Assembly: GCA_003153555.1 (NCBI GenBank)
Contig: PLZS01000115.1
Span: 1 to 64,000 of the forward strand
DNA length: 64,000 nucleotides
Source of the DNA: Candidatus Melainabacteria bacterium
GTDB lineage: Bacteria > Cyanobacteriota > Vampirovibrionia > Obscuribacterales > Obscuribacteraceae
Reading direction: 5' to 3'
In this document: positions 1,526 through 41,839 of the stretch, piece after piece
How the letters are laid out: every line of letters begins with the position of its first letter
How positions within the stretch are numbered: position 1 is the stretch's first letter
Made by a program: the position numbers and the translations under genes
Notes under the pieces: model-generated
Told to the model about the DNA's origin: nothing
The model's input: the letters and a program-made list of their open reading frames with translations, nothing else
Databases searched by the model: none

Positions 1526-2140
1526 CTAATGGTGGATTAACTCTTCGTATATGCAGGTTGATAGTTCTCGTAAATGCGTGATGTCCGTTTGTTTGTCGCC
1601 AGATGATTTAATCGTCACTTCCGCCTGAAAGTAGATAGGTGCTTCGCGCACGGCTGGGGATGTGGATGAAATTAAGCGCCAAGACCATCTGTTTGAAGCG
1701 GTTTGAGTTCCGGCCTGAAACCACAGCAGCGCCAGTTTCTGCGCATTTTTCATTTCAAAAGAAACCAAAGAAGCTGACAGCGTTCCTGAATGTGTTTGTA
1801 TGTGTTCGTCGTTTTCGACAACAGGATTTGCCTGGGCATTGATCAGGCAACTTGTCAGGTCGTGGAGAACGGCATTGGATGGACTTGTTCTCACAACTAC
1901 TCCGGCCATGCTCCCGGCTTTGTTCATATACTTGCGAGCAATCACATCCGCTTTCGAAATATCAGTTGGTGATTCAAATGTTTTCCAATCACCCAATTCT
2001 TTCGGCAGTTTCATCGTAGCTACATTTGAAACTTTCACTCTAGTTATGGCTTGGGCAAATCGAAATGAACCGAACGTTGCAAGACAAAGAGCAACGCTGA
2101 TCAGTGCTTTGAGAAAGTTAGAGCTAAGTGTTGTCGGCAA
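1526..2140 (-). CDS. EpsI-like exosortase-associated protein (DUF3485 type)
   Basis: This 204-residue protein has an N-terminal membrane anchor (about residues 9-31) and an extracytoplasmic domain. Typical EpsI features are LPKELGDWKTFE near residues 44-55, a central HDLTSCL resembling the family's H-S-P-x-x-C-L segment, and LLWFQAG in place of the usual YWFQ. EpsI-like proteins are encoded beside, or fused to, exosortases and are thought to assist surface-protein or exopolysaccharide export. The start is probably TTG at 2140 with GGAG upstream. It overlaps the 3' end of the exosortase gene by 17 bp, so the two should be translationally coupled. The divergent motifs lower certainty slightly. 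Confidence 0.75.
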   Translation of the reverse strand: MPTTLSSNFLKALISVALCLATFGSFRFAQAITRVKVSNVATMKLPKELGDWKTFESPTDISKADVIARKYMNKAGSMAGVVVRTSPSNAVLHDLTSCLINAQANPVVENDEHIQTHSGTLSASLVSFEMKNAQKLALLWFQAGTQTASNRWSWRLISSTSPAVREAPIYFQAEVTIKSSGDKQTDITHLRELSTCIYEELIHH

Positions 2141-2984
2141 AATGCGCTCCCACTTTCCAAAGAATAAATAATCCGATTGGCACCAATATAAATTCGAGGT
2201 TGGAGTGTATGTCCATCGCCAACCGCAGTGATTGGTAGTAGGCTACGATCGCCGTCAGCGCTATTCGTACCGTATTCAGTGTCACCACTAAAATTGGGTC
2301 CATGAGAAAGGCGGCGATGTATGCGGCTGGTTTGTAAGGCTTAAAGGCTTGCCAAATTGCAAAAGCGAAGAGGAAGCACGCCCACATTCCAAGTCCAGCG
2401 CAAGATGGAGCCACATCCATTTGATGTCCGTTGACCGTGAACATGTGTCCAGAGTAGGTAAGGGGAATGAAAAGCTTTGCGGTTTCACCTGCCGTGACAG
2501 TGCAAATATGTTGGAGTGGAATAAATAAGTAAGCTCTGAATTCTTCCGGTAAATCAGGAAGTGTAAACAAAGCCAGAAAGGCTGGTGGTCCGAACTTTTT
2601 ACAGCGATTCAGACCAAAAAACGCCCAGACAAAACATGCGAATAGAGCAATGTTAGCGAGCAAATACATGCGAGTGATGTGAAGATACCCGCTCGCGAAA
2701 ATCAAAAGACACACCGCGATTAGAACGAACGCGCCGGCTTGACTTGGCTTGTCGACTGCGGATGCGCTTTTCTTCCATATCAAATATGCGCTCAGGACCG
2801 ATAGTGTGCCGGCTAAAATCGGGCGAACATTGTCGGCATTAAATGTGTGTGTCCAAACAACCAAACAGCAGACACCGTTAAGAGCCCACAGAAGCAGCCA
2901 AACGGGGAACCATTTGCTGAGCGTCGGGCGATCGTTGGACACACTAGCAACAGCTGGCGAAAGATATTTTTCTATAGTAATCAT
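2124..2984 (-). CDS. Exosortase (multi-pass transpeptidase-like membrane protease)
   Basis: This 286-residue membrane protein has about eight hydrophobic helices. It shows the exosortase catalytic signature in order: Cys195 in VAPSCAGL, Arg240 in LNTVRIAL and His260 in MDIHSN. Exosortases recognise a short C-terminal motif followed by a membrane helix and a basic tail, cut there and probably transfer the substrate to a cell-surface acceptor. SCAGL instead of the common ACSGL, and the absence of a fused EpsI domain, place it outside the classical XrtA type; I cannot assign a named subclass. It is the first gene of a two-gene operon with the EpsI-like gene and faces the micro-peptide genes at 1-242. 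ATG start at 2984. Confidence 0.88.
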   Translation of the reverse strand: MITIEKYLSPAVASVSNDRPTLSKWFPVWLLLWALNGVCCLVVWTHTFNADNVRPILAGTLSVLSAYLIWKKSASAVDKPSQAGAFVLIAVCLLIFASGYLHITRMYLLANIALFACFVWAFFGLNRCKKFGPPAFLALFTLPDLPEEFRAYLFIPLQHICTVTAGETAKLFIPLTYSGHMFTVNGHQMDVAPSCAGLGMWACFLFAFAIWQAFKPYKPAAYIAAFLMDPILVVTLNTVRIALTAIVAYYQSLRLAMDIHSNLEFILVPIGLFILWKVGAHFADNT

Positions 2985-3153
2985 CTGTCGCCCTGAGAGT
3001 CTTGAGGTGAGCGATTATAGCCTGGTTCAATGATTCACTACTTGAGAAGCGTTAAATGACAGGGCAATTGCTGCAGAGTGGCTGTCATGCGGGACGCGCA
3101 AGAATTAGCCAAATCCCTCCTCTGCCCGACTGGTCCTGATTTTTTGTCCGGTC

Positions 3154-3159
3154 TATAAT
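3154..3159 (+). promoter_or_regulatory. Possible -10 element
   Basis: A consensus TATAAT sits seven bases before the ATG of the gene at 3166. If it is used, transcription would begin at about the start codon, giving a leaderless or nearly leaderless mRNA. The -35 region is poor, so this is only suggestive. Confidence 0.25.
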
Positions 3160-3165
3160 TGAAGG

Positions 3166-3912
3166 ATGCGTGCAATTCTCTTTCTATTATTTGTCAGTGC
3201 GTTGGTTCTGCTGTACTGCTTTGTCCTCAGACCTGGTGCAGATAAATCCAAAATCTTCGAATTTCTTTCGGTAATAACTGGATCGAGTCATTCTCTTGAG
3301 AAAGAACAATTAGTTGCCTTTGTGCCTCCGAAGGGTAATTTTCGCGTATCTTTTCCAGGTCAGCCGGGCGTGTTAAACAATAACAACGCTTGGCTGCGCC
3401 AAAGCCCGTTGCCGTTGCCTCATTTTTTTCTCGCCGATCAGGATCTTGGTTATTACGCGTCAACTTGGGCTGAGAATATTTCCGCACCAACTTTGAGCAC
3501 TTCCCAACTTCCAAAAGAGAACCCTGAATCTGTTGCGCTTGGTTTTGTTGTCGCACAATCGGGGCAATCCCGCGGACCATCAGGGCAATCTAACAACGAC
3601 TTGATCACGCACAACCTGGACAACATCGATCCAATTGAAATTCAAAACTTTCTAGATTCGCAATGCGAGTCACTTGTGAGTAAATCAGGAGGTGTTATTT
3701 CTCGCAAAACAGCGCTCTCTTTGCGTGGCGGCGCCTATCCAGGAAGAGCTGCAGAAGGCACTTTCGGCAATACCAAGAACGCCTTCCGGTTGCGTCTGTT
3801 TCTTGACCAACAGAACAAGCGCATGTTCTGTGTTTGCGTCGTGGGTAAACCTAAGCGTGTTTCCTCCGAGCAGGCAACACGGTTTCTCGACTCATTGGAT
3901 GTTTGGTCGTGA
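3166..3912 (+). CDS. Exported or membrane-anchored hypothetical protein
   Basis: This 248-residue protein starts with a hydrophobic signal or anchor (residues 3-22). A segment near residue 50 reads FVPPKGNFRVSFPGQPG. The C-terminal part has a GGAYPGRAAEGTF segment, then alternating hydrophobic strands and a closing phrase VSSEQATRFLDSLDVW. That architecture resembles small extracytoplasmic beta-rich proteins common in Planctomycetes and related bacteria, for which I know no function. GAAGG abuts the ATG. The next gene begins 48 bases downstream on the same strand, so the two may be co-transcribed. Confidence 0.7.
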   Translation: MRAILFLLFVSALVLLYCFVLRPGADKSKIFEFLSVITGSSHSLEKEQLVAFVPPKGNFRVSFPGQPGVLNNNNAWLRQSPLPLPHFFLADQDLGYYASTWAENISAPTLSTSQLPKENPESVALGFVVAQSGQSRGPSGQSNNDLITHNLDNIDPIEIQNFLDSQCESLVSKSGGVISRKTALSLRGGAYPGRAAEGTFGNTKNAFRLRLFLDQQNKRMFCVCVVGKPKRVSSEQATRFLDSLDVWS

Positions 3913-3960
3913 TTACACGGGGCATGAAGTCAGTGATGGGCTCGGGGTTACAGTAGGGTC

Positions 3961-5523
3961 ATGTACAGACCTAACAAATCAAAAACGCTGATAAAGCTGC
4001 AACCAATCAATAGTCTTCCTGTCTACGAAGACTTCGTCAATCTTTTGCAAATGGCTGAAGAAAAACTAGACAGCATCATTCAGTTGCCCTGGCTGGTCGG
4101 CGAAAAGTATCACAGCATTTCTGTCACTTCCAAAATAAAAGGTGATCCGGAATGGACTTTGCGCACCGGTAAAGAACCAAGAACTTTTCTCTTGTGGACT
4201 CACAATTCAGGTGATGTTGGCTTGATTTTCAATCTGGCAATTTCCGAGTGTGGAGGACAACAAGCTACGAAAGACATTATGCAAGGCAACTACGCTCAGC
4301 CCGCACAGCCAGTTTCAGGCGCAATCAGTGCCGCGGCGCCAGTCTCATTTCAGGAAGTCGCCAAGCCTACTCATCATGTTTCTGCAGAGCACGCGGGTTT
4401 CAACTTGTCAGGTGAACTATCGGAATTCGATCTGCCAAGCCTGTTGCAAACGATCGCGATGAGTAAGAAAACCGGTCGTCTTTCGATTCGCTACAGAACA
4501 GATTCAGTGGACATTTATCTGCTAGAAGGTGTGCCTATTCATGCATCAGCAGCCGATTTGAAAGGTGATGACGTCATTATTGAAGTATTGCTTTGGGAAC
4601 AGGGCACGTTTGGCTTTCATCCAGATGAACGTCCGACCGAGCGGACGGTTGTTAGACGACTCGATGCCATGCTTATGGAAGGGGTCACCTTGATTGATTA
4701 CAATCAGCATCTGACCAGGAAAAGCGGTCTCAAAATGGAGTCGTATCTTAGCCGTAAGTTTCCAGATTTGCAGGAATCCGAGTTTGAACTCCAACTCGCC
4801 GATGCGCTGCCCATCAATCTTCAGACCCAAAAAGATTTTTACAATAGAATAGATGAAGTAAGCACACTTCTGGATATTTTGCGCAGCAATCCGATGCCGA
4901 GAGCACAATGGCTTCCAATTCTTTTCAATTTGGTTACGTCCCAACTCGTGGTGCTATCCAATGTGCAGCCGGAATCAGCTAAGAGAGCTAATCTTGAGTC
5001 TATTGGCGTCGATCGTCTGGTAATAGAAAACGCGCATCAAGGAATGGTGCGCACCGAAACTGGTATCTTCAGCTATCCTTGTTTTTTGTATTTTTTGGAA
5101 CAGGAATACGCTCGTTATGGGCAAACGAAATTGCCTTTCTCAGTCATTGTATTTGATATTCTAGTGCGCAAGGACACTGGCTACCAGCCTCTATCCAACA
5201 CGGCAATTAGCCGGATGGGGAAAGTAATCGGTTCGATTCTAAATCGTTTCGACGTTGTCGGTCATTTCCAAACTTTGGAATATGCGCTCTTACTTCCACA
5301 CACCACATCTGACTCGGCTAATATAATCGCTCAGAGCTTGGTTGACTTGCTCATTCGCGCCAATTTGGATGGTGCTCAGGCTGAAGGTGACGTCGCCATC
5401 GCGATGGGGATTGCTAGTCTTCCTGGTGATTGCAGCGATTTGGGCACTCTGCTTGGAGCCGCTAACGCAGCAAAGAATCGCAGCAAGCGCGGCGAGGCGA
5501 CCATCCTTAAATTCAAACCCTGA
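3961..5523 (+). CDS. DUF4388 (PATAN-like) protein with degenerate GGDEF-like C-terminus
   Basis: This 520-residue soluble protein has three parts. Residues 1-100 are an N-terminal domain I do not recognise. Residues about 148-250 match the DUF4388 pattern (GELSEFDLPSLLQTI, TGRLSI, LLEGVPIHA), found in bacterial two-component and gliding/polarity regulators. Residues about 350-515 have the layout of a GGDEF domain, including an FSYPCFLYFLEQE start and a late IAMGIASLPGD segment, but the active-site loop reads VGHFQTLEYALLLP. The catalytic residues are lost, so it is unlikely to make cyclic-di-GMP and may instead bind a ligand or partner. A second DUF4388 protein is at 17002-18405. Confidence 0.8.
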   Translation: MYRPNKSKTLIKLQPINSLPVYEDFVNLLQMAEEKLDSIIQLPWLVGEKYHSISVTSKIKGDPEWTLRTGKEPRTFLLWTHNSGDVGLIFNLAISECGGQQATKDIMQGNYAQPAQPVSGAISAAAPVSFQEVAKPTHHVSAEHAGFNLSGELSEFDLPSLLQTIAMSKKTGRLSIRYRTDSVDIYLLEGVPIHASAADLKGDDVIIEVLLWEQGTFGFHPDERPTERTVVRRLDAMLMEGVTLIDYNQHLTRKSGLKMESYLSRKFPDLQESEFELQLADALPINLQTQKDFYNRIDEVSTLLDILRSNPMPRAQWLPILFNLVTSQLVVLSNVQPESAKRANLESIGVDRLVIENAHQGMVRTETGIFSYPCFLYFLEQEYARYGQTKLPFSVIVFDILVRKDTGYQPLSNTAISRMGKVIGSILNRFDVVGHFQTLEYALLLPHTTSDSANIIAQSLVDLLIRANLDGAQAEGDVAIAMGIASLPGDCSDLGTLLGAANAAKNRSKRGEATILKFKP

Positions 5524-5572
5524 TCGCATGAACCAAATCTGTTTAGACGAACCGAAAGTGCTTAGATGGTGC

Positions 5573-6709
5573 TCAGTTGATCTCGTGCAGCTTTTCGCTC
5601 AGAGGTATGGTCATCGCTTGATATGAGCCAGATCTTGTCCACCTACCAGAGGTAATGCTTTGCGCTTCATACTTGACTCGTTCAGCTTCAGCCGATCGCC
5701 CGGTCGCCCTAAGCAGGTTCTGATAGTTTGAAATCAAATTAGTGACGGCGGGGTGATCTGCGCCTAGTGCTTGCGTTCTAATCGGCAAGGCGCGTTTGTA
5801 GAGAGGCTCTGCTTGCGCATATTTTCTCTGCGCGTGATAAAGCATTGCCAGATTGTTGGCGATGATCCCGACGTCTGGATGTGCCATACCCAGGGTATCT
5901 TCATAGATCTGCATTGTTCGTCTGCATAAAACTTCTGCCTCGGCGTACTTGCCTTGTTTCCAAAGCACTTCCGCCAAACTTTCCAGAGTAATCGTTAATC
6001 GAGGATCACTCTCTTTGAAATTGTCGGCTCGCTTCATCGCACCGTGCCACATCTCTTCAGCTTTTGCAAAATCGCCGACGATCAGAGCATTTTCTGCAGA
6101 CTGGCGATATTGCGCCCACGTTGTTTCACCAACTTGCACTGGCATCAGTCTGTCTTGAGACATCGTGTCAATTAGCTTCTCTTGAGGTTTGATCGAGATG
6201 GTTTGATATTGTCCAGACTTGGTTAGTTGTTCGGCGGTAACCGGAGACGAGGCTTTCGATTCCAAAGTGGACGATCTCCCCATTGTGCGGAGCAAATCTT
6301 TGTAGTTGGTTAGTAAGTAATGAACGTCGTGATGTTCCGGTCCGAGCGAGCGGGTCATGATTTCTATCGCCCGCTGATATAACATCTCGGCTTGCTCATA
6401 TTTCCCCTGAGCCTTGTATAACATTGCCAAGTTATTTGCCGTCACACCCACGTCTGGGTGATCGAGTCCTCTCGTGATTTTGAAAATCTCCAAGACTTGT
6501 TCGCAGAGGGCAGTTGCTTCGGAATACTTTCCCTGATGCCAAAGTGCTTCCCCGAGACCTTCCAGTGTGACGGCAAAGCGCGCGTCAAATTTCTTGAACT
6601 TCTTGGCTTGCTCATAGGCCGCCAGCCACATAGTCTCGGCGCAGGCGTAATCACCCTCCTGCAGAGCTTCTTCTCCGGCTATTTGATATTGATACCAATC
6701 AGCGTTCAC
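5573..6709 (-). CDS. Twin-block kinesin-light-chain-like TPR protein
   Basis: This 378-residue soluble protein has two homologous halves (about 1-185 and 190-378). Each begins with a W-x-x-Y-x-x-x-(G/A)E-x-A helix, carries three or four 42-residue TPRs of the kinesin-light-chain type (VGVTANNLAMLYKAQGKY, then LYQRAIEI), and ends with a short capping motif built on SG-(S/Q)-YQ. Such TPR arrays bind proteins; no enzymatic domain is present. A longer paralogue with the same two-block plan and cap is at 37494-38978. The start codon is GTG at 6709; an ATG ten bases upstream is out of frame. Confidence 0.85.
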   Translation of the reverse strand: MNADWYQYQIAGEEALQEGDYACAETMWLAAYEQAKKFKKFDARFAVTLEGLGEALWHQGKYSEATALCEQVLEIFKITRGLDHPDVGVTANNLAMLYKAQGKYEQAEMLYQRAIEIMTRSLGPEHHDVHYLLTNYKDLLRTMGRSSTLESKASSPVTAEQLTKSGQYQTISIKPQEKLIDTMSQDRLMPVQVGETTWAQYRQSAENALIVGDFAKAEEMWHGAMKRADNFKESDPRLTITLESLAEVLWKQGKYAEAEVLCRRTMQIYEDTLGMAHPDVGIIANNLAMLYHAQRKYAQAEPLYKRALPIRTQALGADHPAVTNLISNYQNLLRATGRSAEAERVKYEAQSITSGRWTRSGSYQAMTIPLSEKLHEIN

Positions 6710-6848
6710 TGTTGCTCATAGACTCCCTAGAAAGCCAGAACTTCCACAACAAAGCATAGAGGAAAGCTTGAATTTTCGTCTAGGTCCAAACGGTAATACC
6801 TTTGAAGTTTGGAAGTTTGTTGTTTGAAGTTTTCCCCTTTGTCCAACG

Positions 6849-24194: not shown

Positions 24195-24391
24195 CTCAAT
24201 ATCCTCCGCAAAGCCCAGTCGTGAAGCAATATACCATTGTCGTCTGTGCCAGGACTTGGAGAACGCCAAGAAAACTCCAGGTTGCTTATGGCAGAAGGGA
24301 TAATAATTCTTTTCGATTACGGTAATTTGTTGAAGTGAAGCAGCCTTACTGGGATACTGGCTCATCTGTCAGAGTGCTGCCAAGGGTGAGT

Positions 24392-25687
24392 ATGAAGTCT
24401 ATTCAAGTTGTCTTTGCGGCGATGTTGCTCGGATGTGTTGCCCAGCCTGTTTTTGCGCATCACGATTTAGACGATCATCTCCAACATCAACAATCCTCGA
24501 AAACTGCAAAGCAAGAAAGTATTGATCCGTGGCATTTGCTCGATTTCGCTTTGACACCTGCCTATGCTCTTTCAACGAATGTTCGGATTTATTTTGATGG
24601 TCCGTATCGAGTTATTGATTCAAACGGTATTCCCAATCATCCAACGGGTCAATTTCCGAATGCGGAAAATCCAAATACGATTTCGGAGCAGTCATACAAA
24701 TTCCGCATGCCGAAAGAACCTGCGGCAGCTCAATCGACAACTCATATGTTCATGGCACCATTCGGTGTTGCCGTAAATGGTATTCCATTTGATCCAGGAG
24801 CAAATGAGTTTTGGAATCGCGATCGGAATTCTGGCTGGCAATATGAGCCAATGTTCCATCACAGTCTTGGGCTCGATCAAAGTAACGCACACGTCCAGCC
24901 AAACGGTGCTTATCATTACCACGGTATTCCAACGGGACTTTTAGATAGGCTCGCTCAGTCACCGAAGCCGGTGCTAATTGGATACGCCGCTGACGGTTTT
25001 CCGATGTACGCACCATTTGGGTATCGAGATGCGAATAACAACAGATCGTCAATGACCAAATTGCGTTCGAGCTATCGCCTTAAGGAAGGCACACGCCCGT
25101 CTGGACCCGGTGGCAGATATGATGGTTCGTTTGTTCAGGATTACGAATATGTGCCAAAGTTGGGTGATTTGGATCAGTGCAACGGACGCTTTGGTGTCAC
25201 CTCAGAATATCCGAAAGGAATTTATCACTACGTCGTGACTGATGCTTTCCCATTTATTCCACGAGAGTGGAAAGGCACTCCGGACGAAAGTTTTCAACGA
25301 CATGGGCACACTGGCAGACCCGGTGGAGGTGGAAGTCAGGGCGAGCGTGATGGTCGACCCGGTGGCGGACCAGGCGATCGCGAAGGAGGACCTCCTGGCA
25401 GCGGTCCAGGCAATCGCAACGGACGATTCCCCGGCGGAGGACCTCCAGGTGGCGGACCTCCAACTGATCGCAATGGACGATTCCCCGGTGGCGGACCTCC
25501 AGGCGGCGGACCTCCAGCTGATCGCAACGGACGATTCCCCGGCGGAGGACCTCCAGGTGGTGGACCTCCAATTGATCGTGACGGACAGCCCCCAGGCGGC
25601 GGACCACAAGGGAACGGCGACGGACGACATCCAAGTGGCGGTCCTCCAGACCAACAGGCTAGGCCGTATGGATCAGGTGGCGATTAA
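24392..25687 (+). CDS. Secreted YHYH-domain protein with Gly/Pro-rich repeat tail
   Basis: A protein of about 431 residues. The signal peptide (MKSIQVVFAAMLLGC, ending FAHH) starts at ATG 24392 with AAGGGTGAG just upstream. The YHYH domain follows, with NGAYHYHGIPTGLLD, IGYAADGFPMYAPFGY, and DLDQCNGRFGVTSEYPKGIYHYVVT. YHYH proteins are extracytoplasmic, His-rich and possibly metal-binding; their role is unknown. The last 130 residues are a collagen-like tail of Gly/Pro/Asp/Arg with near-perfect 18-residue repeats (RNGRFPGGGPPGGGPP). The next gene begins on the base after its stop codon. Confidence 0.85.
   Translation: MKSIQVVFAAMLLGCVAQPVFAHHDLDDHLQHQQSSKTAKQESIDPWHLLDFALTPAYALSTNVRIYFDGPYRVIDSNGIPNHPTGQFPNAENPNTISEQSYKFRMPKEPAAAQSTTHMFMAPFGVAVNGIPFDPGANEFWNRDRNSGWQYEPMFHHSLGLDQSNAHVQPNGAYHYHGIPTGLLDRLAQSPKPVLIGYAADGFPMYAPFGYRDANNNRSSMTKLRSSYRLKEGTRPSGPGGRYDGSFVQDYEYVPKLGDLDQCNGRFGVTSEYPKGIYHYVVTDAFPFIPREWKGTPDESFQRHGHTGRPGGGGSQGERDGRPGGGPGDREGGPPGSGPGNRNGRFPGGGPPGGGPPTDRNGRFPGGGPPGGGPPADRNGRFPGGGPPGGGPPIDRDGQPPGGGPQGNGDGRHPSGGPPDQQARPYGSGGD
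25412..25591 (+). repeat. 54-bp coding tandem repeats
   Basis: Three near-identical 54-bp units start at 25412, 25466 and 25520, and a decayed fourth starts at 25574. They encode the (N/D)RNGRFPGGGPPGGGPP unit of the YHYH protein tail and keep the reading frame. Such arrays change copy number easily. Confidence 0.85.
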
Positions 25688-25888
25688 ATGCAGAAAAGTC
25701 GATTGAAGTTCACGCGAGTGGTTTTAGGAGCGGTACTGCTGCTGGTGCTTTTCACTGTCTACACGAGAATGCCAATTCAAGTAAGAATCTTTGTTCTTCC
25801 CGCGATCCTGCTTGCTTTATGGTGGTGCTTCAACGGACTAATTTCGAAATCTAAACCGAAACGAGACCAACACCAGCGTTTGCCCTAA
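25688..25888 (+). CDS. Small two-helix membrane protein
   Basis: This 66-residue protein has two hydrophobic helices (about 10-25 and 33-50), a basic N-terminus (MQKSRLKF) and a basic C-terminus (SKSKPKRDQHQR). Its ATG directly follows the TAA of the YHYH gene, so it should be translationally coupled and may act with it, for example as a membrane partner. Family unknown. Confidence 0.6.
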   Translation: MQKSRLKFTRVVLGAVLLLVLFTVYTRMPIQVRIFVLPAILLALWWCFNGLISKSKPKRDQHQRLP

Positions 25889-30110: not shown

Positions 30111-31799
30111 ATGAATCGCTTTTTTCTTAGCTCTCTTTTATGTTTGTGCATGCTTTCAGCTCAAGCTCCTGTACACGCTGAATGGTACGACAGTGAACAT
30201 TCGACTTTAGAGAAAGCTAAACGCATGTATCAATCGGGAAGATTTGACGAAGCGCGTGTCATGTTTACCGACTGTATAAATTCCAATGCCAGGTCTGCTG
30301 AGACCTACTATTGGCGCGGTGTTACATACAACAGTCTTAATCAGCCTGAAAAAGCGCTGGCAGATTTCAATCAAACCATATCGCTCGATTCCAACAACCC
30401 TAAGTACTACCTCGGTCGCGGTCTGCTTTACTCCAACAAGAATGAATATGATGAAGCGATCGCGGATTTTGATTCGGCCTTGCGGCTTGATCCCGACAAT
30501 GACATGGCTTCTACGAATAAGAAGTTCTGTGTTCAAGCAATTGCTGATAAGAAAAAGTCCGAGCTAGAAAAGATTGCTAAGGCCAAAGCTGACGCCGATC
30601 GCCTGGCTGCGGAAAAGTTAGCAGCAGAACAGCTAGCGCTGAATCCACCTGTGCCCGCTAAAAAGGGCAGAACCCCTCACACCGTTTCGGAGAAACCGGT
30701 GGCGGTGGCAGTGACTCCTGTTGCAAACAATGCTGCAAACACAGCCCAACTTCGTGCCATCGAAAAGAAGCAGGCTGAGTTGCAAGCTCGGGAACAGGCT
30801 GTTGAGGCTAAGCTCGAGAAGGAACGCATTGAAAGACAGCAATTGGCTGAAGCGAAAATTGAAGCGAAAACAGAGCAGCAACATCTGGTCAAAGAAAACA
30901 AGCGCTCTGCCTCCACTCATGTCGCAAAAACGAAAGAGGTTGAGCCACCAGTTGCGGAAGAACCAGCTGCGCCGCCTGTGAACCGCCCGATCCGGGACAA
31001 ATGGGCCTTGATTGTTGGAATCAGTAAGTTCAAGGATGGCAGTTTGAACTTGCGTTATCCATCTAAAGACGCCAAAGACTTTTATGATTTTCTGGTCACT
31101 AGTGCTGGTTTCAAAAAAGACCACATCAAATTACTGGTCGATGAAGAAGCAACAAGAGGGCGCATTCTCTCAGAGCTTGGCGACAAATGGTTGCCGCGTG
31201 TAGCTAATCCTGACGACCTCGTTGTCATCTACATTTCAAGCCATGGCAGCGCTTCTGATATGGACGTGGGCGGAGTAAATTATCTTCTTGCGCACGATAC
31301 TGACGTAGATAACTTATACGCTTCGGGCTTGCCGATGCAAGATTTGACGCGAATCATCAAAGGTCGTGTTCACGCCGATCGTATCGTGCTAGTTCTCGAT
31401 GCCTGTCATAGTGGCGCCACAACAGTTGCTGACAGCAAGGGACTGACGAGGCGCTCCAATGTCAATGCAGACGAAATAGCTCAAGGCACTGGTCAACTCG
31501 TTATCTCTTCAAGTCTGCCTAATCAAGTTTCTTGGGAATCGAAGAAAGATCAAAACAGCGTCTTCACTAAATACTTGATGGAAGGGTTGAAGACTAAACC
31601 TAACCTTGGCGAAGCGTTTGCTTTCATGCGCAATAAGGTCCAAGAAGAAGTATTGCGCGAACGCGGTGTCTTGCAAACTCCCGTGTTGAAAAGCAAATGG
31701 CAAGGCAATGAACTTGTGATCGGCGCACCGGCTGTAAATCCATCCGCTGGACTGGAGCCAGAAGCTGAAGGGATGCGGCCAGGTCAAACAACGCACTAG
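30111..31799 (+). CDS. Secreted caspase-family (C14) protease with N-terminal TPRs
   Basis: This 562-residue protein has a signal peptide (to about residue 24, ending VHA), three TPRs (about 30-140: AKRMYQSGRFDEARVMF, YYWRGVTYNSLNQPEKAL), an Ala/Lys/Glu coiled coil (about 145-285) and a caspase/metacaspase domain (about 298-530). The catalytic pair is visible: His378 in YISSHGSAS and Cys432 in VLDACHSGA. WALIVGISKF opens the domain. An exported, enzymatically competent peptidase is expected, with TPRs for substrate or partner binding. The M23 peptidase gene begins two bases after its stop codon, suggesting joint action in the cell envelope. Confidence 0.9.
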   Translation: MNRFFLSSLLCLCMLSAQAPVHAEWYDSEHSTLEKAKRMYQSGRFDEARVMFTDCINSNARSAETYYWRGVTYNSLNQPEKALADFNQTISLDSNNPKYYLGRGLLYSNKNEYDEAIADFDSALRLDPDNDMASTNKKFCVQAIADKKKSELEKIAKAKADADRLAAEKLAAEQLALNPPVPAKKGRTPHTVSEKPVAVAVTPVANNAANTAQLRAIEKKQAELQAREQAVEAKLEKERIERQQLAEAKIEAKTEQQHLVKENKRSASTHVAKTKEVEPPVAEEPAAPPVNRPIRDKWALIVGISKFKDGSLNLRYPSKDAKDFYDFLVTSAGFKKDHIKLLVDEEATRGRILSELGDKWLPRVANPDDLVVIYISSHGSASDMDVGGVNYLLAHDTDVDNLYASGLPMQDLTRIIKGRVHADRIVLVLDACHSGATTVADSKGLTRRSNVNADEIAQGTGQLVISSSLPNQVSWESKKDQNSVFTKYLMEGLKTKPNLGEAFAFMRNKVQEEVLRERGVLQTPVLKSKWQGNELVIGAPAVNPSAGLEPEAEGMRPGQTTH

Positions 31800-32864: not shown

Positions 32865-35800
32865 GTGGATGCGTCTATACAAGTGGCAAAATTAGACAAC
32901 GACGAAGCTAGACAAGTGGCCAGTGCGACTGTCATACCAACATTGGACGCTCTTACAAGCGTCAGTGCCAGCGATCAAAGCGCTTTGATTACTTTGCTTG
33001 CTTGTCTTGATAATCCCGCTTCTCGCACGGAAGCTTGCCGGACTTTGCATTCGTTGGCGGAGTGCTTATCTGAGCGACCGGCGGCCAATCTATCGCTCAA
33101 ATCGCTTGAAATTCCAGGTACGACCAAACCGATTCGGCTGATCTTGTCTCCCGCTGTCTTCTCGCCTGAGCAGTGGGGTAGAACGTTCGCTGAAGGATTA
33201 ATGAAGACTCCTGAGATGTTCTACGGTAAAAGGGTTGTTGAGTTAGGCACTGGGTCTGGTTGGATCAGTTTGCTGCTGTTGCTACGCACTGGCGTAGCGG
33301 AACTTTTGGCGCTCGATATAAATCCAGTGGCGATCACCTTGGCTCGTCTGAATTGTTGGCTGAATGGCACCACGAGTGATGGCACTCTTGTATTCAGTCA
33401 ATACGGCGTTCCGATCATTAATGCACTTCGCTTTGCCGAGTCAGATTTGCTTGCCGAGGCCTTCAAGTCAAACGAAAGGTTTGACCATGTAATTGGCTGC
33501 ATACCTCAAGTTCTTCATCCTGATGAAGAGGGTGCGGAAGTTAAAAGCAGGACTTCCGAAGAAGACTTGTACAATTTGAGTAACTACTGCTTTCAACAAG
33601 GCATTTTGGAAGATCGTTTCGGATTGCCGCTCATCGCCAGAGCCTTGGAAGAATCTCAACTTTGTTTAAATCCGGGCGGAAAAGTAACCCTAGTGCTTGG
33701 TGGACGTCCAGGCCCCGGCGCGATTGAGTCGATGTTTAGTCGCCGCGGATTCGATTCCAAATTGATTTGGAGCAGAAGGATTCAGCAAGCAGACGATACT
33801 GATTTAGCATCTCTCGTTAGGTTGGAACGAACGCACTCTATCCAATTTCATTTCTTCATGTCGCGTGATTCGCAACAAGCAGTTTCCGCCGAGACCGCCG
33901 TTCAATTGCTTAAAAAGAATCAGGATGTGTATCATGACTTGCTTGTTTACCAGGCTGTGACTCGATGGGAGACGCCGACAACACTCTTTGTGCGCAACTT
34001 GCATGAGATGAAATTGGATTCTTTGCGTAATGAATTAGACTTTTCTAGAGTGACAGAAGAGCAAGTTAGTTTCTTGAGCCGCTTTTCCTCTGACATGCTT
34101 ACTTCCAAGGCAATTCCATATCCGCACGAAAGAGGCGATTCAGGATTGCGCACTAAGTTAGCTAAATTTCTGAATCTCTATTGCCATTATCCGATTTCCG
34201 TGGAGCAGCTCTTCGTCGGACCCGAACGAAGTCAGCTTTTAGCCATGGTATTGAATATGGTGACCAGTTCCGGTGACCAAGTTCTAATATCTCAATCCAT
34301 CTCATCAATTTATTCTCCAGTCACAAAGCAGATGCAGCTTAGTCTGGTTCAAGGAAATGATGATCTCTCTGAACTTCTTCAGCTCGTTGAGATCATCCAA
34401 CCGGCTGTGGTTCTAATCGCTCCAAGTCAATTGTCTCATCCATCGTCGCTTACTCTTCAGGCTTTGCGGGATCATGCGAGCAAGAATCCACATCGTTGGT
34501 ATTTGGTCGATGATTCCGCGCACTTCGATATTAGTTCTGATTTAAATTCAAACATGACCATTCGTCTAGCGGCTCAGCTCAAGCTGCCGGGAAATTTGAT
34601 ATTTATCTATGGATTGATCAAAAACACGGTATCTCCTGACTTGGAACTTAGTTTTTTGTTGAATGCTCCATCTAAATGGATTCATGCTTTCGATGTGGGC
34701 GCCGAACTTACGTACTCGCGGATTGCCTATCCGAGCCAACTTTATTATGAATGGTTATTCGACGACCTGTTGTCGTTTCCTTTCCCTTTGCAACAAACAC
34801 AATCTCTCGATTCGCACGAAAATGAAACTGAGTCTACTTTTTCGCTTAACTTTCTTGCCGCCGCCACCGATCCTGTGTTCAATCCTAAACCCATAAACCC
34901 AGAACAGGTCGGGGTGATCAGGCTGGACTATGGAGAAATGGAGGCTCCCGTTCCGGACGCACTGGTAAAGGGATTGTTTAAGGGATTTCTGGAGGAATCG
35001 ACGGACCGCCTTGAACAATTGATGATCGAGCGAGTTTGTTCCTACTTTAAAGCAACTCGACAGGTTGATGTTGAGCCAAGCCAGATAGTTTTATCGCAGG
35101 GCGTCTTTCCGCTTTTTGGTGCCTTGCTGTCCACCCTGCGCAAGCGATTGAAACGTGCTCCAATTGTCGCTTTGCCCGATGGCAGTTACGGACCGGTGTA
35201 TGCGGCAATAAAATATCACGGCGGTATAGAGCAACGAATTCCTACCGACCCGAGTAAAGCATTCTTACTTTCTGCAGATCAATTGGATCGCTTAGATCCT
35301 AAACCGGATTTGCTTTGGTTGACGCAGCCGAACAATCCGAGTGGTTTGTATTTTCACTCAGATCAGATTCAGTCCATAGTCAAAACTTGCAGAGACAGGG
35401 ATATTTTGCTGCTGGCCGATGAAATATTTTTCTTGATCAGTGACTTTAGGCTGGGTGCATCAACTCCAAAGTATTTGAGTTTCGCATCGGCCCTCAATGG
35501 TAGTGCCAGCAAAAATGTTTTCATCTCGGATGGTATTTCCAAAATATTTGCGGCCGGTGGAATGCGCTGCGGCTTTATGGTTTGCCCGGATGATGTCTGG
35601 GCGCAGGAATTGCGCGCTTCAGTCTGCTTGCCGCCACGTTCGACGTTACGCGCCTGGGACGCACTTTACTCACCGTTTCTGGATTCACCGCCGCACAGAT
35701 TCGTCAATCTTGTCAGTGAAAAACGCGACATCCAAGAATATATGGATACGATTCGAAAACAGTTATCCTCACAACGAGACGAACTCATAGACTTACTCAA

Positions 35801-36029
35801 GCAATACCAGTTGGATGATCAAATCGATTCACCTTACCGAGGTGGATTTTTCGTTCTCGCTAAACTCGCAGACCGGTACGAACAATTGGCCACAGAGGCA
35901 GGACTCTTAGTTAATCCAGAGCAGTGGGCCCGAACGCCAGGCTGGGCGCGGATTTGTTTCGGGTTGACTCCTTACCACTTCCAGCTAGCAAAAACGCGGC
36001 TAAGAGACTTTTTGGAGAATGGGAGCTAA
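32865..36029 (+). CDS. Plant-type methionine S-methyltransferase (methyltransferase fused to two PLP-fold domains)
   Basis: A 1054-residue protein starting at GTG. Residues about 1-350 are a class I SAM methyltransferase: VVELGTGSGWISLLL (123-137), LALDINPVAI, VIGCIPQVLHPD (209-220), LGGRPGPG and QQADDTDLASLVRLER. These phrases, in this order, match plant methionine S-methyltransferase (EC 2.1.1.12), which makes S-methylmethionine from methionine and SAM. Residues about 420-660 and 685-1054 are two aminotransferase-fold domains, again as in the plant enzyme. Unlike the plant protein as I recall it, the last domain keeps a PLP-type lysine site, DGISKIFAAGGMRCGF (Lys near residue 893), so it may be a working aminotransferase. 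The membrane protein gene at 36042 follows by 12 bases. Confidence 0.88.
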   Translation: MDASIQVAKLDNDEARQVASATVIPTLDALTSVSASDQSALITLLACLDNPASRTEACRTLHSLAECLSERPAANLSLKSLEIPGTTKPIRLILSPAVFSPEQWGRTFAEGLMKTPEMFYGKRVVELGTGSGWISLLLLLRTGVAELLALDINPVAITLARLNCWLNGTTSDGTLVFSQYGVPIINALRFAESDLLAEAFKSNERFDHVIGCIPQVLHPDEEGAEVKSRTSEEDLYNLSNYCFQQGILEDRFGLPLIARALEESQLCLNPGGKVTLVLGGRPGPGAIESMFSRRGFDSKLIWSRRIQQADDTDLASLVRLERTHSIQFHFFMSRDSQQAVSAETAVQLLKKNQDVYHDLLVYQAVTRWETPTTLFVRNLHEMKLDSLRNELDFSRVTEEQVSFLSRFSSDMLTSKAIPYPHERGDSGLRTKLAKFLNLYCHYPISVEQLFVGPERSQLLAMVLNMVTSSGDQVLISQSISSIYSPVTKQMQLSLVQGNDDLSELLQLVEIIQPAVVLIAPSQLSHPSSLTLQALRDHASKNPHRWYLVDDSAHFDISSDLNSNMTIRLAAQLKLPGNLIFIYGLIKNTVSPDLELSFLLNAPSKWIHAFDVGAELTYSRIAYPSQLYYEWLFDDLLSFPFPLQQTQSLDSHENETESTFSLNFLAAATDPVFNPKPINPEQVGVIRLDYGEMEAPVPDALVKGLFKGFLEESTDRLEQLMIERVCSYFKATRQVDVEPSQIVLSQGVFPLFGALLSTLRKRLKRAPIVALPDGSYGPVYAAIKYHGGIEQRIPTDPSKAFLLSADQLDRLDPKPDLLWLTQPNNPSGLYFHSDQIQSIVKTCRDRDILLLADEIFFLISDFRLGASTPKYLSFASALNGSASKNVFISDGISKIFAAGGMRCGFMVCPDDVWAQELRASVCLPPRSTLRAWDALYSPFLDSPPHRFVNLVSEKRDIQEYMDTIRKQLSSQRDELIDLLKQYQLDDQIDSPYRGGFFVLAKLADRYEQLATEAGLLVNPEQWARTPGWARICFGLTPYHFQLAKTRLRDFLENGS

Positions 36030-36041
36030 CCAAGCAACCCG

Positions 36042-36959
36042 ATGAAGACTGACACTGCGGAAATGTTTTCTCAGGATTTTGCCGAGTGCATTCTGTCGCC
36101 TGCGGATATGGTCGGTCGGGCATATCGCCTAGCCCGCAAGGACTGGAAGATCATGGTTGGCGTTTCGGCTATTCCCTCTTTTGTAAGCGCCCTTTCAGGC
36201 TCTATGTTAGGTCGGTCACTTGGTCATTCAGATGCTGGCAGGTGGACTCTTGTTGCAGTAATCGTGTTGATTTTTGTGAACGTGGGATGCGGTTTTGCCC
36301 TCCGTGTCATTCAGTTTGCTTTGGTGACTCTGCTACTTGGGCAGTATGCTGATTTGAAAACCGCTCTTGCAGAGTCTCGAGAAAAAATTTGGTTTATCCT
36401 TTGGATTTCTTTGCCTACTGTTCTGGCTGATCTTGTAGGAATTCTCCTGGCTGCGCTTTCGCTGTGGATGATGATTCCTGGCGAAAGTAAGAATATGATG
36501 TTCGCTGGTGCTGGAGCGATGGGTTTTGTACTGCTTATATTTATCAGCGTGCCACTTACCTGTTTGAGTCTCTTAAATCTGTTTTTCATTGTCATCCTTA
36601 TCGAAGAACGATTGTCGGTGCAAGACGGTTTTGTTCGCTTCACCCGTTTATGCGCGAATGCAAATGTTATGGGGTACATGGCAGGTTTCTTCGCCCTGTT
36701 TGCACTCGTATCGCTGATGCTTGAGTTGTGCACGCTGTTGTCGTCAGCGATAAATTTTTCAAACTCGTTACCATCTGGTGCGCTAAAAGAACTGTTTAGA
36801 GATGCGGAGTCATTATTGAGATGCGTCATATCAATGCCGGTATATGCATTTGTGACAGGCGCAGGAGCTGCCGGTTGCGCTGGGTTGTATACACAATTGA
36901 TTATGAAGCTGGAAGGCGCTGATCTCGTAAAGAACTTGGCTCAAGTTAAACAATGCTGA
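36042..36959 (+). CDS. Multi-pass membrane protein, unknown
   Basis: A 305-residue protein with about six hydrophobic segments, a soluble N-terminus (about 1-35) and a C-terminal cytoplasmic tail (KLEGADLVKNLAQVKQC). The general look, with long amphipathic helices after the first membrane pair and an EERLSVQDGFVRFTRL loop, is that of DUF975/glycerophosphodiesterase-type membrane domains, but I cannot assign it. It starts 12 bases after the methionine S-methyltransferase-like gene on the same strand, so it is probably co-transcribed and could transport or sense a product of that enzyme. Confidence 0.7.
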   Translation: MKTDTAEMFSQDFAECILSPADMVGRAYRLARKDWKIMVGVSAIPSFVSALSGSMLGRSLGHSDAGRWTLVAVIVLIFVNVGCGFALRVIQFALVTLLLGQYADLKTALAESREKIWFILWISLPTVLADLVGILLAALSLWMMIPGESKNMMFAGAGAMGFVLLIFISVPLTCLSLLNLFFIVILIEERLSVQDGFVRFTRLCANANVMGYMAGFFALFALVSLMLELCTLLSSAINFSNSLPSGALKELFRDAESLLRCVISMPVYAFVTGAGAAGCAGLYTQLIMKLEGADLVKNLAQVKQC

Positions 36960-38978: not shown

Positions 38979-39355
38979 AGATCACGAGTCCCTAAAGCGC
39001 CCGCGCTGATTACTATTGCCTGCTGTTATTAAATCTACCCTTTAATTGAAAAAAGTAGTTTAAAGCTTGTTTTGGGGGAATATAAATATCAGCAACTCAA
39101 ACGTTGACCAACGCTGAGAATGAAACGTACCCCAGCGGGCTTGTGCCCGAGACGCCCCTTCCTCAGCGGTCATTCAGGTCCAAATCTCCCGAACTGCCTC
39201 TGCCCTTTTAAACGATTAGCCACACAGTCAGCTGTGTGGTTAACGTCGTTCTTAGAATGGCTTCATAAGTTAACTTGTTGGATTGAAACGATGTTTGGGC
39301 TAAAAGGATTTTGAAAGGCTAACCCATTAAAATAGCATCGTTGACGAGATGCTCT
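38979..39355. other. Gene-poor intergenic stretch with one hairpin
   Basis: No convincing gene in 377 bases. A 64-codon frame at 39120-39314 has Cys/Pro-rich, non-protein-like composition. The only structure seen is the hairpin at 39216-39243. Confidence 0.4.
39216..39243 (+). promoter_or_regulatory. 12-bp stem-loop upstream of the SulP gene
   Basis: TTAGCCACACAG pairs with CTGTGTGGTTAA around the loop TCAG, with one G-U pair. No T-run follows. It may be a regulatory leader element or an operator-like inverted repeat for the SulP/carbonic anhydrase gene. Confidence 0.35.
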
Positions 39356-41839
39356 ATGGAAGAAGCCGTCCCAGCCAGTCCCAAGAAAGAACTTTGGGGA
39401 ATCGACTACCAATATCTGTTTTCTGAATGGAAACAGATGTTTGCCTCTGAATCCACAGTTGTCAAAGACATCTGGGCTGGAGCAACGGTTGCCCTTGTGG
39501 CGCTTCCGCTCAACCTTGCTTTGGCAATTGCGGCTGGTGTCGAACCCAGTGTTGGCATCACAACCGGTATCATCGCCGGAATTATCGGTTCCCTGTTTGG
39601 GGGACAACGATTAGCGGTGACTGGTCCAGCCGCGGCGATGGCAGTAGTCCTGGTCGAAATTTCTCAGACTTATGGAATCGGTGGCATCTGGATGGTCTGT
39701 TTGGTCGCCGGCGCTTTGCAGTTGCTGGCTGGTATGTTTAAGCTTGGCAGGTTGATTTCCTTTATCCCGATGCCCGTGACCGTGGGTTTCGCCACCGCCA
39801 TTGGTTCGCTTGTCTTTTTTAATGCCCTCGACGATTTTTTAGGCTTACCATCGAAACGAATTGCGCACGTAGGTGAAATGCCAGTACCGGCACACAACTT
39901 GCTGCCTCAGTTTTTGATCGATTTATCTGACATTTGGCATCGATGCGTCGTTCACCAGGAGATGAACTGGCAAGCGATTATACTCGGTGTGCTGGCCTTG
40001 GTAATTGCTTACTTCCTGCCTCGTTTAACCCGGGCAATTCCTGGACAGTTGGTTGCGATAGTGGTGACTACGATACTGGCCACTTTTTTGCATTTGAACG
40101 TGCCTGTGATTAAGGACGTGGCAACGATATCTAATTTGATGCCTGGGCCAGCATTGCCTCAATTGCCATGGCAGGACTTTTTTGTTCTGTTCCCGACGGC
40201 AATAACCGTGTTCATGCTGGGCTCGATTGAGTCGCTTCTTTCTGCGTCTGTGGCTGACGGCATGACTGGATCGTCAAAGCATCATTCAAATCAGGAGTTA
40301 GTTGGGCAAGGTATCGCAAATATGGTGGTGCCATTTTTCGGTGGCATTCCCGTTACTGGAGTAATCGCAAGAACCGCAGTTAACATCCGTGCTGGCGCCA
40401 GAACCAGGCTGGCCGGGGTGATTCACTCGCTTGTTTTGATGACGTTGATTTTCTTGTTGGCCAAACAAGCCGAGCAAATTCCGTTAGCGGCCCTTGCCGC
40501 TATTTTGATGCTGACCGGAATTCGATTGATTGAGTGGGATGCTGTTCGCGAAATTTGGCGCGTCTCTCGCGCTGAAGGATACGTTGTAATTGCCACGACT
40601 ATTGCAGCCGTGGCCGTGAATTTAACAGCCGGGGTTTTCGTTGGTTTGGTATTTGCTTGTGCTCTATTTATCCGCCAGATGAGCGATGTAAATCTCACAC
40701 CGAGCGCTGCGGGCAACGAAATGGTTATTGATATTCCTACCTGCAATTACGTTCGTACTTATGTTGTGGATGGACCGCTCTTCTTTGGAGCTGCCGAACG
40801 CTTCATCGAAAACATCATAGTTTTGGATACTGTCAAAGTAATCATTTTGCATATGAAAGCGGCTCGGGTAATGGATTTGACCGGCGTTGAGACGTTGCTC
40901 TCGATTCAACATCAATTGCGTCGACATGGCGGTAAGCTGGTGCTCGCCGAGTTGCCTGCGCAACCACTTGCTCTGTTGGATAAAACAAGTGCGCTCGAAA
41001 CAATCGGCAAAAGTAATGTTTTCAGCGATTACAAAACAGCTGTATTGACTGTAAATAATGACTTGCTGAGTAGCAATTGCAAATCTTGCGCGATCAAAGA
41101 AGGTAAAGGTCCCAAAGACTGCCGTCTTCGCAATGCGTTACTGGATGAGTCAAGCCCAATGGCTAGAATGTTGGAGGCCTTAAAGGCTACTCCAACTCGC
41201 TCTGACGAAGCTGGTCTGGAGTGGCTGTTTCCGGTTGACTCACCTGGTGAGATTCCGAAAATATTGCAGAACACGCCCATTGAGACCTTGTTACTAGGTC
41301 AGAATCTCGGTGAAATCCAAGTGCGTCCTACAAATATGGCCGAGATTGTTATCGGCATGTGCATTGACTTCAGAAAGTCATTATCTATTCCGCGAGACTG
41401 GGCCTTCATTCTGCGTCGTGAGGGCGCAAACATGGATGGTGCCGAGTTTGCTATCGCCTTGGCTTTATCCAAAGGGGTCAGACACATGGCCTTGATCGCT
41501 CATAATTCTTGCGCAATGTCCAACACCGCCGATCACCGAAAGGCGTTCGTGACTGTGCTTAGTCAAAAATATAATTGGAATCGTGAGCAAGCGCTGGATT
41601 TCTTTGACAATCACGCTCGTAGTCACGATATCGGCAACGAAATTGATTTCGTACTGCAAGAAGCGAATCGGCTTTCTGCACTTTTCCCCGGTTTGATGGT
41701 AGTGCCAATTCTGTTCAGAGTTGAGGACGATAGGCTTTATCTGATTTATGACTGGCTTATTGCCAATGCTAAAGACGACTCGATTATGCGAAAGTTGACT
41801 CTGCGTGATACTGGCGGATTCCGCACTATTTCGAACTAA
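39356..41839 (+). CDS. SulP-family anion transporter fused to STAS and beta-carbonic-anhydrase-like domains
   Basis: A protein of about 827 residues. A SulP membrane domain with 10-12 helices (LNLALAIAAGVEPSVGITTG, then GGQRLAVTGPAAAM) is followed by a STAS domain (about 470-570; VMDLTGVETLLSIQ), a Cys-containing linker (SCAIKEGKGPKDC) and a C-terminal beta-carbonic-anhydrase-like domain. The zinc site of the last is seen as MCIDFR and IAHNSCAM (Cys near 668, His near 716, Cys near 719). SulP/carbonic-anhydrase fusions are known and are taken to couple bicarbonate uptake to CO2 hydration. I place the start at ATG 39356; a TTG at 39341 is in frame but lacks a ribosome binding site. Confidence 0.88.
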   Translation: MEEAVPASPKKELWGIDYQYLFSEWKQMFASESTVVKDIWAGATVALVALPLNLALAIAAGVEPSVGITTGIIAGIIGSLFGGQRLAVTGPAAAMAVVLVEISQTYGIGGIWMVCLVAGALQLLAGMFKLGRLISFIPMPVTVGFATAIGSLVFFNALDDFLGLPSKRIAHVGEMPVPAHNLLPQFLIDLSDIWHRCVVHQEMNWQAIILGVLALVIAYFLPRLTRAIPGQLVAIVVTTILATFLHLNVPVIKDVATISNLMPGPALPQLPWQDFFVLFPTAITVFMLGSIESLLSASVADGMTGSSKHHSNQELVGQGIANMVVPFFGGIPVTGVIARTAVNIRAGARTRLAGVIHSLVLMTLIFLLAKQAEQIPLAALAAILMLTGIRLIEWDAVREIWRVSRAEGYVVIATTIAAVAVNLTAGVFVGLVFACALFIRQMSDVNLTPSAAGNEMVIDIPTCNYVRTYVVDGPLFFGAAERFIENIIVLDTVKVIILHMKAARVMDLTGVETLLSIQHQLRRHGGKLVLAELPAQPLALLDKTSALETIGKSNVFSDYKTAVLTVNNDLLSSNCKSCAIKEGKGPKDCRLRNALLDESSPMARMLEALKATPTRSDEAGLEWLFPVDSPGEIPKILQNTPIETLLLGQNLGEIQVRPTNMAEIVIGMCIDFRKSLSIPRDWAFILRREGANMDGAEFAIALALSKGVRHMALIAHNSCAMSNTADHRKAFVTVLSQKYNWNREQALDFFDNHARSHDIGNEIDFVLQEANRLSALFPGLMVVPILFRVEDDRLYLIYDWLIANAKDDSIMRKLTLRDTGGFRTISN

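Follow-up and report, generated by a model that had tools for sequence, protein, structure and literature searches.

A plant-like methionine S-methyltransferase with a conserved, predicted PLP site in the non-photosynthetic Obscuribacterales

The window analyzed here, a stretch of 64,000 nucleotides from a member of the Obscuribacterales (contig PLZS01000115.1), encodes a protein that, judged by its sequence, is a real and intact bacterial Group III methionine S-methyltransferase (MMT), a type already known (PMC9135737). New are the lineage and an intact, strictly conserved predicted PLP site: the Obscuribacterales are a further MMT lineage, with an order-wide presence of the gene and apparently vertical inheritance. 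We consider it probable that this Group III MMT combines formation of S-methylmethionine (SMM) in its N-terminal domain with a pseudo-dimer of its two aminotransferase-like domains, AT1 and AT2, that holds one composite PLP site.

By frame inspection of the window, the open reading frame ran without a break from a GTG at 32865 to a stop at 36029, and the chain of 1054 amino acids (aa) was laid out as an MmtN-like methyltransferase followed by AT1 and then AT2 (Table 1). A Pfam search of the protein returned MTS at aa 94-171, barely above the cut-off, and Aminotran_1_2 at aa 720-1036 (E 4e-30); for the middle domain, AT1, the search found no family. The union of a methyltransferase and a C-terminal aminotransferase-like region in one chain (class size about 115 kDa) is a Group III feature, whereas the stand-alone methyltransferase of ~33 kDa that marks MmtN (Groups I and II) was absent, its place being taken by a three-domain chain. 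Four homologues from metagenome-assembled genomes, with the names Obscuribacterales, Obscuribacter, and Cyanobacteria among them, were 52 to 56% identical over the full length, and because the gene was also intact in about 30 further genomes, it is neither a chance frame nor an assembly artefact.

Table 1. Coordinates of the MMT gene, its domains and predicted PLP-site codons, and the adjoining downstream gene in the window
Feature	Position	Strand	Basis or remark
MMT gene, Group III-type (plant-like) methionine S-methyltransferase	32865..36029	+	single uninterrupted ORF, GTG start, 1054 aa
SAM-dependent methyltransferase domain, about aa 95-335	33147..33869	+	Pfam MTS; best PDB match MmtN 7vvv; invariant columns
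AT1, degenerate aminotransferase-like domain, about aa 372-640	33978..34784	+	profile match 2gb3; weak alignment to AT2; motif count; residue table
Tyr419 codon	34119..34121	+	corresponds to the Tyr that, in class I aminotransferases, extends into the PLP site of the other subunit
AT2, aminotransferase class I/II domain, about aa 676-1053	34890..36023	+	Pfam Aminotran_1_2; AlphaFold domain model
Asn824 codon (PNNPSG)	35334..35336	+	N in 35/35 homologues
Asp852 codon (ADEIFF)	35418..35420	+	D in 35/35 homologues
Lys893 codon (DGISK), predicted Schiff-base lysine	35541..35543	+	K in 35/35 homologues; aligns with the GFSK PLP-lysine motif of 1o4s and 1gde
Arg901 codon (PLP phosphate, predicted)	35565..35567	+	R in 35/35 homologues
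Arg1029 codon (substrate alpha-carboxylate, predicted)	35949..35951	+	R in 34/34 homologues reaching the position
Membrane protein, no known family	36042..36959	+	12 bases downstream of MMT

Methionine S-methyltransferases have been divided into three groups, the third of which comprises the enzymes of plants and of some bacteria (Peng et al. 2022; PMC9135737). The sequence-only reading of this DNA had held that bacterial enzymes consist of the methyltransferase alone, a view that is outdated: some Deltaproteobacteria and Oligoflexia (Pseudobacteriovorax and others) carry a plant-like dual-domain MMT of Group III (PMC9135737). Compared by description alone, the window protein fits the published account of these enzymes (bacterial, dual-domain, plant-like) but belongs to another phylum. 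The MMT genes of those two groups showed no linkage to DMSP or Met-cycle genes, and the bacterial role was called hard to predict (PMC9135737).

Our reference for plant MMT was an approximate, unverified Arabidopsis sequence, and comparisons with it are a lead, not a database result. Against this approximate sequence, a profile of five bacterial homologues scored 399 bits in one full-length domain; together with the uninterrupted reading frame, this end-to-end match is a strong lead in favor of the earlier claim of a full-length plant-type MMT in a bacterium. Domain order is identical to that of plant Group III MMT (e.g., Arabidopsis, EC 2.1.1.12), and length is similar. The likeness across all three domains that had also been claimed proved right in kind and strongest in the methyltransferase, with identities to the approximate Arabidopsis sequence of 36% there, 24% in AT1, and 20% in AT2 (26% overall). 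The approximate plant sequence and the bacterial homologues share the methyltransferase signatures GCIPQ, LSNYC, ED-FGL-LIARA, and GGRPG as well as a DT motif.

The methyltransferase was the most conserved of the three domains, with 81 invariant columns across 32 homologues, and displayed the motifs GTGSG (128-132), D151, and GCIPQV (211-216). The best PDB match of this part, a distant one, was the bacterial methionine S-methyltransferase MmtN of Roseovarius indicus (7vvv; E 6e-6, 29 bits). The two have in common the methyltransferase fold and SAM motifs (GxGxG, GC[IL]PQV, and a TD motif), and C212 of the window protein aligns with the SAM-binding C121 of MmtN. They differ in that MmtN has no aminotransferase domains and in that its Met-binding Glu127 corresponds at the aligned position to His218, which is neither Glu nor Asp. 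The loss of this one Met-binding Glu and the distance from MmtN (29 bits) would suit a protein whose main catalyst is AT2 and whose methyltransferase acts on some other thioether or amino acid, in which case it would be no methionine S-methyltransferase. We regard this as improbable, given that the methyltransferase is the most conserved part and the one with 36% identity to the approximate plant MMT sequence, and that GCIPQ, LSNYC, ED-FGL, GGRPG, and DT are common to the latter, with GC-PQ and TD found in MmtN too. The N-terminal domain would be expected to transfer the methyl group of SAM to methionine, yielding SMM. A PADLOC mad2 match to this domain was taken as generic methyltransferase similarity.

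AT2 was the least conserved domain overall (37% identity between families), and five of its residues were invariant in every homologue covering them, in two families of the Obscuribacterales (Table 1): N824, D852, K893, R901, and R1029, which we take to be the Asn, the Asp, the Schiff-base Lys, the phosphate Arg, and the carboxylate Arg of fold-type I PLP enzymes. Y775 was likewise present in all 35 homologues covering its region. An AlphaFold model of AT2 by itself was fair (pLDDT 70, pTM 0.71), and its nearest fold was the class I aminotransferase 1o4s (TM 0.72). With class I aminotransferases (1o4s, 1gde), ACC synthase, and GntC, AT2 shares the fold and the complete PLP residue set, but it falls far under the cut-off of every named family and is without the trans-acting Tyr loop, which is found in AT1 instead. 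Its sequence matches include ACC synthases and C-S lyases, and the best named family, the PLP cyclodehydratase GntC, was not reached (79.8 bits versus a cut-off of 415); because matches to any single PLP family are this weak, the reaction of AT2 cannot be read from its sequence. A longer homologue of 1167 aa (locus L048, genome G410, 3277-6780) carries an insertion of ~100 aa in AT2 between DEIFF and DG-SK and retains all key residues.

AT1 gave a weak match to aminotransferases (16-sequence profile, 2gb3, E 0.006). It retains K586, D549/D550, and a Tyr loop (Y419-x4-G424-x4-R429), but a complete PLP site would also need an Asn, which is missing, and an Arg, which is replaced by Glu or Gln. 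The profile alignment of AT1 with AT2 was weak (1% probability, E 0.04), yet in it the Lys motifs of the two domains lined up, as did the Asp motifs. Class I aminotransferases lend a Tyr loop to the PLP site of the partner subunit, and the corresponding Y-x4-G-x4-R motif was counted in 34 of 36 homologues for AT1 and in none for AT2. One of the two exceptions retains the Tyr, and the second is a fragment that seems to carry a frameshift. In a homologue at locus L050 (genome G409, 2067-4022), similarity is lost near the AT1 Tyr loop and the frame ends early, through a frameshift or an assembly error.

The simplest reading of this residue pattern across AT1 and AT2 is a pseudo-dimer whose two halves share a single, composite PLP site. 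AT1 and AT2 would pack within the chain as two fold-type I PLP domains, with Lys893, Asp852, Asn824, Arg901, and Arg1029 supplied by AT2 and Tyr419 reaching in from AT1, whose own site would be degenerate. The composite site should bind PLP, a difference from plant MMT so far as the comparison allows. In the approximate plant sequence, what we take to be the positions of Lys893, Asn824, and Arg901 in AT2 hold Leu, Ser, and Lys, and the presumed position of Tyr419 in AT1 holds Phe; by this approximate sequence the plant PLP site appears dead, as against an intact bacterial one. Full-length co-linearity with the approximate plant MMT sequence, the relation to MmtN, the invariant AT2 residues, the complementary Tyr loop, and the AT2 fold all argue for the preferred reading of SMM formation joined to a composite PLP site. 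Against it stand the change of Glu127 to His218, the weak family matches of AT2, the AT1-AT2 alignment (E 0.04), the unverified plant sequence behind the contrast with plants, and a full-length AlphaFold model (pLDDT 44) too poor for judging the pseudo-dimer.

The complete PLP residue set in the rear part of the protein suggests a second, candidate reaction besides methylation, and bifunctionality of the bacterial MMT seems plausible. At the PLP site the substrate might be one of the small amino acids, with methionine or the SMM formed by the neighboring domain as the likeliest, and the reaction either a transamination or one in which dimethyl sulfide leaves the gamma carbon, both guesses at this stage. 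ACC synthase is a PLP enzyme of the same fold as AT2 that can take SMM as a substrate. Tentatively, then, the bacterial enzyme may make SMM and go on to consume it at the AT1-AT2 PLP site, giving dimethyl sulfide by gamma-elimination or a keto acid by transamination, with plant MMT being the same fusion with a dead site.

The rear domains of plant MMT are thought to be structural or regulatory, and the shared architecture invites the same view of the bacterial protein: an ordinary Group III MMT in which the methyltransferase alone is active and SMM serves as a methyl or sulfur store or is drawn into an SMM cycle by a homocysteine methyltransferase. The genomic complement of PF02574 proteins bears on this view in both directions. 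Most f1 genomes held two such proteins each, and the genome of the window encodes a B12-dependent MetH and a homocysteine methyltransferase fused to MTHFR, the latter of which might accept SMM. Matches to PF02574 in the Obscuribacterales were mostly frames of about 650-1250 aa, with few shorter ones, down to 162 aa; leaving out those few, the PF02574 search of the order revealed no clear stand-alone enzyme of the MmuM type (~310 aa), a point that tells against an ordinary MMT. So does family f44, whose three genomes (loci L045, L046, and L047; G386-G388; up to 94% complete) encode MMT and SAM synthetase and gave no match to a PF02574 homocysteine methyltransferase or to a PF01717 protein (MetE). 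These genomes are therefore unable to support an SMM cycle of the plant kind by the enzymes known for it, and an SMM cycle as the universal role of MMT in the Obscuribacterales is ruled out. These bacteria probably depend on imported methionine, as methionine auxotrophs that retain MMT. Since f44 offers no PF02574 route for SMM, the fused PLP site is left as the candidate user of SMM. Five invariant PLP residues and a complementary Tyr loop are, moreover, hard to square with purely structural domains, and we rate an ordinary MMT with only its methyltransferase active as rather unlikely.

Within the samples searched, MMT is confined to non-photosynthetic Obscuribacterales. Two families of the order carry it, with the gene present in 37 of the 53 genomes searched (16 of the 22 of good quality); among 236 other genomes of the same class (class sample) there was none with MMT, and in a phylum sample of 386 genomes only the genome of the window had it. 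The gene was missing from two genomes belonging to the same genus as the window, so that either losses occur or assemblies are incomplete. A search of 72,556 plasmids gave no full-length MMT match, and a scan of viral contigs gave no relative. The genes adjoining MMT recurred across the Obscuribacterales, both families having an LTXXQ-type gene upstream, and the methyltransferase and aminotransferase trees recovered the same supported groups, from which it follows that the domains travel together. Because of the recurring neighbors, the shared upstream gene, and the matching trees, the evidence points to a fusion that is old in the Obscuribacterales and apparently vertically inherited across the order. 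The plant branch, represented by one approximate sequence, was saturated and allows no inference on plant placement or on the direction of any transfer between plants and bacteria.

That reading had also raised a plastid connection, which found no support. Plant-type architecture in a host from the cyanobacterial phylum might suggest a gene that moved from plants or green algae into the Obscuribacterales, or one that plants acquired by way of the plastid ancestor. Such a transfer appears highly improbable: MMT was found in none of the 172 genomes (81 genera) with photosystem reaction-centre genes within the phylum sample, its presence in two families, each with an LTXXQ-type gene upstream of it, argues for age within the order, identity to the approximate plant sequence is only 26% on a saturated branch, and plant-like MMTs are known from unrelated bacterial groups (PMC9135737).

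The surroundings of MMT varied in their other details. The downstream membrane protein of the window (Table 1) is a possible operon partner of MMT there and is not its usual neighbor in relatives. A short-chain dehydrogenase lies directly 3' of MMT on the same strand at locus L001 (11127-11993) and in about a dozen relatives, and not so in the window. Upstream of the window's MMT, a TPR-caspase protein (30111-31799) has counterparts at many Obscuribacterales MMT loci and no evident link to methionine. A SulP-type permease with a STAS domain (39341-41839) lies 3.3 kb downstream, and its family had no match among the open reading frames at the other MMT loci examined. A 54-base tandem repeat of 3.6 copies (25413-25605) falls within open reading frames around 24335-25706. 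An Rfam search of the window returned no riboswitch or other known RNA.

An intact bacterial PLP site would provide a direct handle on the chemistry of the fusion, for setting against the plant form, and bears on the purpose of the aminotransferase-like half of plant MMT as well as on the role of bacterial Group III MMTs. If it is true that the same protein consumes SMM, this would represent a new route of sulfonium chemistry in widespread uncultured bacteria, one that may release dimethyl sulfide.
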